This document shows, piece by piece, positions 14,629 through 17,990 of a DNA stretch of 56,838 nucleotides; positions within the stretch are counted from its first letter, which is position 1; every line of letters starts with the position of its first letter. The translations under genes were made by a program, and so were the position numbers. The stretch covers positions 1 to 56,838 of the forward strand of contig JAFSCI010000001.1 in assembly GCA_017436815.1 (NCBI GenBank). The letters are read 5' to 3'. The notes beneath the pieces are model-generated. The model was not told the DNA's origin. It was given only the letters and a program-made list of their open reading frames with translations, and ran no database searches. This DNA is from Clostridia bacterium. GTDB taxonomy: Bacteria > Bacillota > Clostridia > Oscillospirales > Acutalibacteraceae.

Positions 14629-15351
14629 ATGCTAAAGAAAATATTTGTGGTATCCGACCCTCACGGTCATTGCACGTTGCTCGAGAATGCATTAAACAAG
14701 GCGGGTTTTGACAATGAAAACAAAGACCATCTGCTTGTTTGCTGCGGCGACTATTTTGACAGAGGTAACGAAAACGCGCAGGTGTTAAAATTTTTCGAGC
14801 GGGTAAAAAATAAGGTTTTGTTGCGTGGTAACCACGAGGATTTGTTGCTCAAATTATTGCAAACAGGCAAGGTTTTGCCGCATAATTACATCAACGGCAC
14901 TATGATCACTTTAGAAAACTTTTTCGGAAAATATTTTTTAGACCCCGTAACCGACACAATAGATTTTTCGGGAAAAACAAGTACGGTAAACAGAATATGC
15001 TCGTTTTTAGAGGATACCGTAAACTATTTCGAAACCGAAAATTACGTATTTGTTCACGGCTGGCTGCCGCCAAAAGAAAATTGTGAAAACGATTTAAAAT
15101 CGGTAAGTGATGAGTTATGGGAAAAAGCCCGTTGGATAAAATGGACCGATGCTTATTCAGGCCAAAAGCCACTGCGAAACAAAACCCTTGTTTGCGGGCA
15201 TATGCCAACGTTTTTTGCAAAGAAGTTTGATGCAAATCGCAAAGAGAACGATGCCGACATTTTTTACGGCAACGGCCTTATTGCAATAGATGCAGGCACG
15301 GCTGATACGAAAACGGTAAACGTGCTTGTTATAGAGGACAATTTAATTTAA
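14629..15351 (+). CDS. Metallophosphoesterase, PPP/ApaH-like (240 aa)
   Basis: The calcineurin-like metal motifs occur in order: SDPHGH (residues 9-14), GDYFDRGNE, RGNHEDL, VHGWLP and GHMPTFF, closing with AIDAGTAD. This set is that of bacterial PPP-type phosphatases, which act on phosphoproteins or dinucleoside polyphosphates; the substrate cannot be told. It starts 7 bases after tdk, so it shares that operon. A strong terminator follows at 15356-15391. Confidence 0.88.
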   Translation: MLKKIFVVSDPHGHCTLLENALNKAGFDNENKDHLLVCCGDYFDRGNENAQVLKFFERVKNKVLLRGNHEDLLLKLLQTGKVLPHNYINGTMITLENFFGKYFLDPVTDTIDFSGKTSTVNRICSFLEDTVNYFETENYVFVHGWLPPKENCENDLKSVSDELWEKARWIKWTDAYSGQKPLRNKTLVCGHMPTFFAKKFDANRKENDADIFYGNGLIAIDAGTADTKTVNVLVIEDNLI

Positions 15352-15355
15352 GATA

Positions 15356-15391
15356 AAAACTGAGGCAAACAAAATCGTTTGCCTCAGTTTT
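15356..15391. terminator. Bidirectional terminator between convergent genes
   Basis: Arms AAAACTGAGGCAAAC and its complement (15356-15370, 15377-15391) with a 6-nt loop and T-rich sequence on both outer sides. It serves the phosphatase gene (plus) and the RyR unit (minus). Confidence 0.85.
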
Positions 15392-15406: not shown

Positions 15407-15688
15407 TTATTTTTTCTTTAACTCATAACCGAGTGATAATATAAGCTTTATCGTCTGGATAGCAGTGTTTCGGTCGTAGTCCTTTTCGCTCTCGGGCAGG
15501 TCACCGTAAGGGACTAAGCAGGGGGTCTGCTTTTTTTGGTCGTTGCGCTCTTTAGCATAGGTCCAGCCTTCGTCTACCCGGCCCTTTGCCCATACCTCGT
15601 GTACGTTTTCGGCTATCTTTTCGGTTAGCTCTAATAAATCATCGGGTAAAACAATATTGGAAGTATCAATAGGTTTTGGTGTGTACAT
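15407..15688 (-). CDS. Stand-alone RyR (ryanodine-receptor domain) protein (93 aa)
   Basis: The whole protein is one RyR domain: YTPKPIDTSNIVLPDDLLEL, then ENVHEVWAKGRVDEGWTY, then TPCLVPYGDLPESEKDYDR and a last helix. This domain occurs singly in gut bacteria and as repeats in animal ryanodine receptors; its bacterial ligand is unknown. AAGGAG precedes ATG 15688, which follows the TGA of the upstream large gene by one base (TGATATG), so the two are coupled. That upstream protein ends in a second, diverged RyR domain. The longer frame from 15712 has no ribosome site and overlaps the upstream gene. Confidence 0.92.
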   Translation of the reverse strand: MYTPKPIDTSNIVLPDDLLELTEKIAENVHEVWAKGRVDEGWTYAKERNDQKKQTPCLVPYGDLPESEKDYDRNTAIQTIKLILSLGYELKKK

Positions 15689-15689
15689 A

Positions 15690-17930
15690 TCAGTTCTCCT
15701 TACAAAGCTCATTGGCTTTTTTAATTATTTGCGGAATTTCGGCTACCAGTTTTTCGTCTGACGATTTAAAATTAGTGGGTTTAATATTATGCTCATTTGC
15801 TAAAGCCTCGTATTTTTCTTGCAGCTCATCTAGCTTATCCCAAGGCACAATACACGGGTGAGATTTTGAAATTTCATCCTTGTGCGAGCGGTTGGCGCCC
15901 ATATATTTTGCCATATCGTCGACGCTGGCTACTCTGTAACCCTCGCTACGCAAAAATGCGTTCCAGCGCTCGTGCTCGTTTGCCATAATTATTTGTCTTA
16001 TTTTATCATCGGCTACCGTGTCACAGAAGGCTTTAAGCTCTTTGTCGGTGGGAAGCTTGCCGCCCGTAACTTTTTGGGGCTCATTGCCTTTTAGTATCCT
16101 ACAGCTGTGCAGCTTTGCGAATATATGAAGTGCGGCCGCCATAGATGAGCGACGGTTATATTCCTGAGAATAGAAGGCTTCCTTTGCGCTCTTATAATCG
16201 AACTCATTTAAACCCTCGCCGCAAAACGCACCGCAGTAGCTTAAATGTACCGCAAGCGCTAAATTTTCGAGGGTTGAATTAAACAATGCGTGCTCGGCAA
16301 AAACGTTTGTGTTGGTGCCAAAAAGGTGAATTTTGCGGTCGGCAAGATACGAGCCCTTGCTATCGTAATTATTTGATTTTAACGGCTTTCTTATTCTTGT
16401 GAAAATCGGCGGAGTATAGCCGAAGGAGTTCGCGCGTCTGAAAATTCTGAACATCTTTTCGGCCGTTTGCATATTAAGATCATCCGAGCCGGTTGCAATT
16501 AAAACAAAGGTGGCATCTGAATTTTCGGTTATTTGTTTTTCAAAGTCGGGACTTAAAATATCGGTGTCAATAAAGTTTATTGCGTAGTTGCCTGAAAGCT
16601 CGGGGCACTCGGAATAAAATTCTTTTTCTACCTGGTTTGCTTTATTGTCGTAGACGTTTATCTTTAGCGAATAACCCTCTATCTGACCTGCCCACACAAC
16701 CGTTTTAAGCATTCGGGTACCAAGCTGACCGGCACCCACAATGGCTACCGAAATATCGCGTCGGCCGTTCGGTAAGTTATAAAGCGGATGACTGAAGATA
16801 AGATTATTACAAAACAGCGCCGTTTGGTCAATAAATCTTACTCTTAAGGGGTCGTTTGCCCACTTGGTTGTCAGTCGGTTTTTGTATACCTTAAGATTTG
16901 TTTTTCTAAAGGAGTCATTGCCGTCACTGCGCATAAGAGTGAAATTGTAATTATAGGCCTCAACAGGCAGTTTAATTTTGCTTAAAGGCTTTCTCGGTAA
17001 TGCAAAACCGCCTTTGCAGGCATCATTAAGTAATGCGTTGTCAGCTTTTTTCCAGTTTGCAAAAATAATTTGGGTTTTGGGATTTTTCCTGTAAATTTCT
17101 TCAGCTTTAAAAAGGGAAGCTTTTGTTAAATTATCGAAAATTACTGCCGGTGTTTTGTCGAGCAAATGCTCTAAAACGCTTATATTAACCGAGCTTTGCG
17201 CAAAGGTGTTTATTATAATATTATATTTTGCAAGCTTTTCCTTTTTACCAATAAAATTCTCTGTCAGCTGAATATTCTGGTCCTCATTTTCGGTCAAGCA
17301 GAAAAACTCATAACCCGAAAAGCAGTTTTTAAGATGTAGTTCAATGCAGGATTTATGTAACAGTATAGCCGATTCTTTTCTTGCGGCCGAGATAAGTGAT
17401 TGATCGGCGCTTTTTGTGTTGCAAAAAACAATGGTCCTATTTTTATACTTTTTTCTGATGCCCTTGGCCAGAACAAGTGAGTTCTCATTAAGCTGAGAGA
17501 AAACGTAGCATTTTTGTCTTTTAAAGGTTAAAGCGTAACGAATACGATCCCCTAAATCGCCAATAAAAGTGAGTATTAAGCTTGAGGCTAAAATAGGGCA
17601 GAGAATAAAGCAGATATGGTTAATTACAATATAAATCCATTTTAATATTCCGCTTAAGGCAATGGTTTCTATCTGCGCTAAATCCTGCCTTCCCGAAATG
17701 GCCTTAAGACTGTAAAGGACCGATGATGCAACTGCGTATAACGGCTCGCACCAGACCGATTTACCTTCTTTAACCCACTCGGTAGGTAAAACCATAAAAA
17801 AGGTTGAAAACAAAATTCCCAGGGTAACGCAGGTTATCCATTTACCCATATCGGTTCGGTTTTTAAGCGCGCACGCTACCGATACACCAAGAATAATAAT
17901 GCTAATTACAAAACAGATATAACTAAACAT
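15690..17930 (-). CDS. Membrane-anchored tandem Rossmann protein with C-terminal RyR domain (746 aa)
   Basis: Hydrophobic segments fall at about 1-22, 31-49, 66-78 and 92-123, giving three or four membrane helices. A degenerate Rossmann-like (TrkA-N/RCK-like) region follows at about 138-300 (CYVFSQLNENSLVLAKGI). A second, canonical one starts near 393 with VAIVGAGQLGTRML, the GxGxxG of NAD(P)-binding folds. Residues about 650-710 are a RyR domain (ANEHERWNAFL, SHPCIVPWDKL). The order membrane, RCK-like, ligand domain resembles a gated channel, but no selectivity filter is seen. The start is set at 17930 behind GAGGGATG; a longer frame to 18020 would cover the promoter. Function unknown; nucleotide sensing is an inference. 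Confidence 0.82.
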   Translation of the reverse strand: MFSYICFVISIIILGVSVACALKNRTDMGKWITCVTLGILFSTFFMVLPTEWVKEGKSVWCEPLYAVASSVLYSLKAISGRQDLAQIETIALSGILKWIYIVINHICFILCPILASSLILTFIGDLGDRIRYALTFKRQKCYVFSQLNENSLVLAKGIRKKYKNRTIVFCNTKSADQSLISAARKESAILLHKSCIELHLKNCFSGYEFFCLTENEDQNIQLTENFIGKKEKLAKYNIIINTFAQSSVNISVLEHLLDKTPAVIFDNLTKASLFKAEEIYRKNPKTQIIFANWKKADNALLNDACKGGFALPRKPLSKIKLPVEAYNYNFTLMRSDGNDSFRKTNLKVYKNRLTTKWANDPLRVRFIDQTALFCNNLIFSHPLYNLPNGRRDISVAIVGAGQLGTRMLKTVVWAGQIEGYSLKINVYDNKANQVEKEFYSECPELSGNYAINFIDTDILSPDFEKQITENSDATFVLIATGSDDLNMQTAEKMFRIFRRANSFGYTPPIFTRIRKPLKSNNYDSKGSYLADRKIHLFGTNTNVFAEHALFNSTLENLALAVHLSYCGAFCGEGLNEFDYKSAKEAFYSQEYNRRSSMAAALHIFAKLHSCRILKGNEPQKVTGGKLPTDKELKAFCDTVADDKIRQIIMANEHERWNAFLRSEGYRVASVDDMAKYMGANRSHKDEISKSHPCIVPWDKLDELQEKYEALANEHNIKPTNFKSSDEKLVAEIPQIIKKANELCKEN

Positions 17931-17960: not shown

Positions 17961-17990
17961 ATTATACCATAATATATAAACGAATGTAAA
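17961..17990 (-). promoter_or_regulatory. Promoter of the RyR two-gene unit
   Basis: On the minus strand TTTACA (17990-17985) and TATAAT (17966-17961) are separated by 18 bp, about 30 bases before the ATG at 17930. Confidence 0.7.

Follow-up and report, generated by a model that had tools for sequence, protein, structure and literature searches.

The window analysed here, 56,838 nucleotides of contig JAFSCI010000001.1 from a gut-type Clostridia bacterium of the family Acutalibacteraceae, carries on its minus strand a two-gene unit, in which a gene for a large membrane protein with two RCK domains and a C-terminal ryanodine receptor (RyR) domain is followed by a gene for a small, free RyR-domain protein (free RyR). 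The features of the locus, with positions in the window and amino acids (aa) of the encoded proteins, are:

15690..17930, minus strand: large gene, 746 aa, with three transmembrane helices plus a pore-helix-like segment, RCK1, RCK2 and a tandem RyR domain
about aa 139-360 of the large protein, minus strand: RCK1, predicted Rossmann/RCK fold
about aa 362-545 of the large protein, minus strand: RCK2, with GxGxxG, predicted Rossmann/RCK fold
15693..16295, minus strand: C-terminal tandem RyR region of the large gene, aa 546-746, with pocket residues H653, W656, H691 and D725 assigned by motif
15407..15688, minus strand: gene of the free RyR, 93 aa, with residues H30, W33, T55 and D72
17961..17990, minus strand: sigma-70-type promoter-like site TTTACA-18-TATAAT with extended -10, upstream of the gene pair
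15356..15391, no strand assigned: hairpin where two genes converge, with a terminator score for the plus-strand gene
14629..15351, plus strand: metallophosphatase-like flanking gene with weak family matches only, not part of the unit

The two genes (17930..15690 and 15688..15407) are separated by a single base in the junction TGA-T-ATG, as a sequence-only reading of this DNA had stated, and the second ATG is preceded by AAGGAGA, a good ribosome-binding site. That reading had also given the pair a shared promoter and terminator. The site at 17990-17961 is a strong, top-scoring promoter-like site of the region and agrees with 11 of 12 consensus positions; consensus sites are common here, with 16 in the region versus 8.5 +/- 3.1 in shuffles. 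The terminator is less certain, since the hairpin is listed for the plus strand and not for the minus strand, and it is only plausible that it acts bidirectionally and is shared with the pair. Scanning the window for Rfam families and tRNAs gave no match.

The free RyR is a clear RyR protein, matching PF02026 at 4.5e-36 (123.4 bits against the Pfam cut-off of 27.4); 91 residues of it align to a Bacteroides/RyR chimera, and animal RyRs also give long alignments. The large protein alone scores below the cut-off (E 0.057, 14.1 bits); a phmmer search of PDB sequences gave a RyR match at 2e-7, a family profile of its C-terminus recovers RyR structures at 6.6e-14 and the predicted fold is concordant, so that both genes encode a RyR domain, as had been claimed. 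A chance match was rejected because, although the single-sequence Pfam score is weak, profile and fold support homology. RyR matches at E up to 0.1 were obtained for 13 of 35 family members. The region models as a tandem two-half R12-like domain and matched RyR3 Repeat12 structures titled as complexes with ATP, ADP or AMP-PCP. Against viral models nothing was found below E 0.001, the four top rows being phage RyR proteins at E 0.15-0.41. The animal ryanodine receptor differs as a Ca2+ channel of about 5000 aa, and the matches of the large protein to RyR sequences were confined to its RyR region.

The phage protein RyDEP was reported, in a preprint, to cleave 2'/3' cyclic ADP-ribose (cADPR), to contact its ligand through H75, W78, H100 and D117 and to be a homodimer, R12 being a two-fold tandem (PMC13232231). 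Its H75, W78 and H100 have clear equivalents in H653, W656 and H691 of the large protein, while D725 pairs with the catalytic aspartate by motif only, in a column gapped in 19 of 35 members. Across the large family the EHxRW motif keeps its histidine in 33 and its tryptophan in 34 of 35 members, and the KxH histidine is found in all 35. The free RyR of the window has three of the four pocket residues (H30, W33, D72) and T55 as the fourth; equivalents of these three are present in 18 of 18 free RyRs, with the RyDEP spacing in 17 and one residue more in locus L090. RyDEP and sponge-type phage proteins thus share with the free RyRs the RyR/R12 domain, a similar size and the H..W..D spacing, but the free RyR is here the bacterial operon partner of a membrane protein, and in 15 of 18 free RyRs the position of the phosphate-binding H100 is a threonine. 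Both proteins of the unit are predicted nucleotide binders, and the free RyR may differ in its phosphate contacts.

Both middle domains of the large protein model as Rossmann/RCK folds and form two consecutive RCK domains. Middle domains that did not model as Rossmann folds had been named beforehand as refuting the idea of one system, and the models pass this test; the GxGxxG motif is confined to RCK2 and absent from RCK1. The best fold matches are the channels CASTOR/DMI1, GsuK, MthK and Slo1 and the TrkA/KtrA gating rings, which likewise place two RCK Rossmann domains behind a membrane segment but lack the C-terminal RyR domain. The alignments with GsuK and MthK extend into the membrane region, but at 6-8 Å. 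Of the three or four membrane helices originally counted, three hydrophobic segments (aa 1-25, 30-50 and 90-127) are supported, together with a pore-helix-like segment, and the membrane region, aa 1-127, shows an M1-helix-M2 layout. In many family members (e.g., L022, L074, L083 and L086) an acidic motif such as DGDF, DGEF or DEDY lies right behind the pore-helix-like segment, at the position of a selectivity filter; in the protein of the window it is shrunk to QD. An ordinary K+ channel was rejected, as the TVGYG filter is missing.

The family of the large gene is patchily distributed, with members in 10 of 98 close genomes and in 50 of 394 genomes of the order, the latter count including the window's own genome as well as G230 and G268, each matched through a short frame only. 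The genomes are based on metagenome assemblies, that of the window is 69% complete and contig edges cut some operons. A free RyR is the immediate operon neighbour of 10 of the 54 family genes in the fetched loci and lies in the same run as 12 of them (the free RyR of L080, missed by the open reading frame (ORF) picker of the run analysis, is included in the final free-RyR counts). In the 55 genomes chosen for a family match, 8 of the 16 full-length free RyRs directly adjoin a family gene and one more lies in the same run. Full-length free RyRs occur in 15 of the 394 genomes, and 14 of these, the exception being G148, hold a separate family gene (Fisher p 3e-13 to 7e-13), whereby in G177, G365 and G426 the family match is partial or of fusion type (E 3.5e-9 to 2.8e-12). 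The expectation that the two genes stay together in other genomes is thereby borne out, although most family genes (42 of 54) have no free RyR in their operon. The closest relatives of the large gene are in L020, L109 and L110 (clade support 100/100). L109 and L110 contain exactly the same pair, and the metallophosphatase-like gene is a syntenic landmark beside the homologues in L020 and L110 (69% identical in each). A mobile phage gene was considered and rejected: at E 1e-5 the large protein matched a single entry of the phage collection, MT835673.1, which looks bacterial because two of its flanking ORFs begin like ORFs of the bacterial locus L082; this unverified "Bacteriophage sp." gut scaffold (L132), which carries a family gene, is probably a mislabelled bacterial fragment.

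Genes for TIR-domain proteins are found near family members more often than expected. A TIR_2 match lies within 5 kb of at least 21 of 59 typed family genes (at least 17 of 52 genomes) versus 1.07 expected from TIR density; this is a lower bound from positions of 149 of the 174 TIR matches, and the 59 genes exclude G160, G230, G268, the second G360 fragment and the free RyRs, while run and neighbour counts refer to the 54 genes in fetched loci. An immediate same-strand TIR gene was observed for 9 of 54 family genes versus 14 of 774 other genes of the same loci (p 4e-6). The loci L036, L037 and L111-L118 were fetched for RyR or TIR matches, which biases toward linkage; without the loci fetched in this way the comparison is 7 of 52 versus 12 of 639 (p 2e-4). 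TIR_2 is also the top family among the immediate neighbours, with 9 of the 40 scanned out of 46 listed (7 of 38 without L117 and L118), in a list restricted to proteins of up to 1500 aa and without edge genes of odd length. The gaps measure 12-55 bases in eight of the nine immediate pairs and 107 in one, and in 13 of 54 family loci a TIR gene belongs to the same-strand run. The TIR proteins carry varied repeats (MORN, LRR, TPR and, weakly, beta-propeller). In L080 TIR, effector and free RyR genes follow consecutively, in L113 TIR, RyR and TIR genes stand in succession, and in G087 one open frame (L115:7796-9805) has a hydrophobic N-terminus, a TIR_2 match and a RyR match. In L020, whose genome yielded no free RyR, a 1211-aa TIR-MORN gene ends 14 bases upstream of the family gene. 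Its TIR has, besides itself, one close match among 96 genomes, a 1216-aa TIR-MORN protein (51% identity, 152 bits; next 42) encoded on contig C30 of the window's own genome (L038:6668-10318), which is one of two TIR genes there and a candidate partner. The TIR domain of L020 had no match in PDB sequences at 0.001. A glutamate is seen in the local TIR alignment at what we take to be the catalytic position and is not used as support.

Further genes accompany the family. Operons of a RyR-RCK membrane protein and a fused double-AAA M41-peptidase protein were found at L021:6567-14431, L028:7982-14745 and L086:4681-10485, that of L021 also with a short TIR gene and a free RyR, that of L028 with a free RyR. 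Single proteins that join a kinase, an RCK-RyR-like module and a Card1-like nuclease are encoded at L027:6098-10934, where a free RyR gene follows, and at L026:5015-9253. ORFs resembling this Card1-like region lie 11 bases before a free RyR gene in L111:3845-5400 and two genes away from a free RyR in L083 and L084. A Tubulin_2 protein is encoded downstream of the family gene in L079:8977-17172, a similar-looking large gene in L090:8514-16898, and a weakly FtsZ-like protein with a TIR domain adjoins the free RyR in L113:9071-10186. Genes of 1823-1930 aa with similar N-termini lie near family genes at L022:9735-15434, L076:2542-8334 and L075:11857-17328, and those of L022 and L076 gave weak domain matches only (transglutaminase-like in L022). 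In L037 the neighbour of the free RyR was suspected to be of NADAR type, which was dropped after NCBIfam returned nothing.

The proximity of TIR genes above expectation suggests an immune channel opened by a signal derived from nicotinamide adenine dinucleotide (NAD), and a TIR-signalled, RyR-gated membrane effector with the free RyR as limiter is, with moderate confidence, the best explanation of the unit. The large protein would form homomers and act in the membrane as a ligand-gated effector, with a gating ring of tandem-RCK type. Upon infection or stress a TIR-domain enzyme, most likely the one encoded by the TIR-MORN gene on C30, would produce an NAD-derived signal, and the tandem RyR domain would be its receptor; the nucleotide, derived from NAD or ADP-ribose, would most likely be an isomer of cADPR. 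Ligand in the pocket of H653, W656, H691 and probably D725 would move the gating ring and, through it, the membrane helices, so that the membrane is opened or disrupted and growth stops. The free RyR, in solution, may bind signals of the same class and limit or end them as sponge or glycosidase, so that the effector stays off as long as the signal is at its basal level. The proposed steps of signal, binding, gating and limiting draw on homology, gene linkage and the biochemistry of the preprint (PMC13232231); by analogy with RyDEP described there, the earlier proposal that the free RyR shares, buffers or delivers the ligand narrows to its binding or destruction.

The closest known logic is that of Thoeris, in which a TIR protein, ThsB, acts with a ThsA effector, type II having a membrane-bound TM-macro ThsA (PMC12948488, PMC11204291). 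Common to both are a TIR gene that recurs close to the gene of a membrane protein, whose ligand domain is predicted to be of ADP-ribose type, and the order of signal and then effector, here predicted; different are the effector, with tandem RCK domains and a RyR sensor, and, in the window, the unlinked TIR gene. The unit would work like Thoeris but fails membership on effector and local TIR gene, and we rate it a variant of TIR-nucleotide immunity. A catalogued defence system was rejected, as neither protein matched in PADLOC or NCBIfam, and searches of Pfam, NCBIfam and PADLOC at E up to 1 gave neither a SIR2 nor a SLOG nor a macro domain. Bacterial RyR-RCK proteins were the subject of no title found in literature searches; an earlier description is possible. 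The 2015 work of Burroughs and Aravind on nucleotide-centric systems is said to be relevant.

Several observations weigh against a TIR-signalled channel. A TVGYG-like filter was not found between the helices of the large protein, where SGRQDLAQIE follows the pore-helix-like region, and no Pfam channel domain was matched in 35 family members. The C30 gene is unlinked to the pair, no TIR gene lies beside it, and L109's genome, of unstated completeness, has the same pair and no TIR_2 match. The earlier expectation of defence genes nearby holds for family members and their TIR genes, not for the window, whose surroundings, named by eye apart from genes checked by domain scan, are apparent housekeeping genes in no visible defence island. 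TIR linkage is loose or often rearranged, spread across the family and not stably inherited, because on a tree of 49 of the 54 genes the label "TIR-linked" requires at least 11 changes and clusters no better than shuffled labels do, of which 240 of 500 were as low. The density control presumes an even spread of TIR genes, with no accessory islands modelled; island clustering could explain part of the signal, the short same-strand gaps less easily. The threonine of most free RyRs at the H100 position and the other partners of the family (AAA-AAA-M41 proteases, a Tubulin_2 protein, kinase/nuclease fusions) count on the same side, and pocket residues do not predict activity, because in the preprint six of eight phage RyDEP homologues bind signals and other tested ones do not cleave (PMC13232231).

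The alternative that survives best, a housekeeping or stress ion channel whose RyR domain reads ATP/ADP and whose RCK2 reads NAD(H), with TIR neighbours due to shared genomic islands, is unlikely in our view: the nucleotides in the titles of the RyR3 Repeat12 structures, the GxGxxG retained in RCK2, the neighbours in the window and the 41 of 54 family genes with no TIR gene in their run agree with it, whereas TIR as top neighbour family, the short gaps and a distribution too patchy for housekeeping do not. Similarly unlikely is that the free RyR, instead of being sponge or hydrolase, is an obligatory co-receptor or subunit that docks on the RyR half of the large protein to complete an R12-like pocket. 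This would fit the near-constant presence of a family gene in free-RyR genomes, often in one operon, and the dimeric or tandem build of RyDEP and R12 in the preprint (PMC13232231), but the large protein already models with both halves, and 42 of 54 family genes, including L020 in G048, have no free RyR in their run. Least probable is a membrane-tethered scaffold or sensor that forms no channel and controls a protease, kinase or nuclease. The fusions of the RCK2-RyR-like region in L026/L027 and the protease neighbours in L021, L028 and L086 agree with it; the lack of such an enzyme in the window operon, the M1-helix-M2 layout and the reach of the GsuK/MthK alignments into the membrane region, though at 6-8 Å, speak against it.

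A more specific form of the TIR-signalled effector, which we put forward only tentatively, sees in the unit the counterpart of the ryanodine receptor in bacterial immunity, i.e., a TIR-activated cation channel gated by a cADPR isomer, with an M1-P-M2-like pore, a tandem-RCK ring, an R12-like sensor and a soluble RyR off-switch. If this is true, phage RyR proteins such as RyDEP and the sponges would have arisen from host signalling of this kind or be directed against it. Binding of TIR-made cADPR isomers by RyR domains was recently reported for phage antagonists in a preprint (PMC13232231). A receptor on the bacterial side that bears this domain on a channel-like protein and is recurrently linked to TIR genes would give TIR immunity a further class of effector, and it would make an old question directly testable, namely whether a RyR domain binds cADPR-type signals and gates an ion channel.
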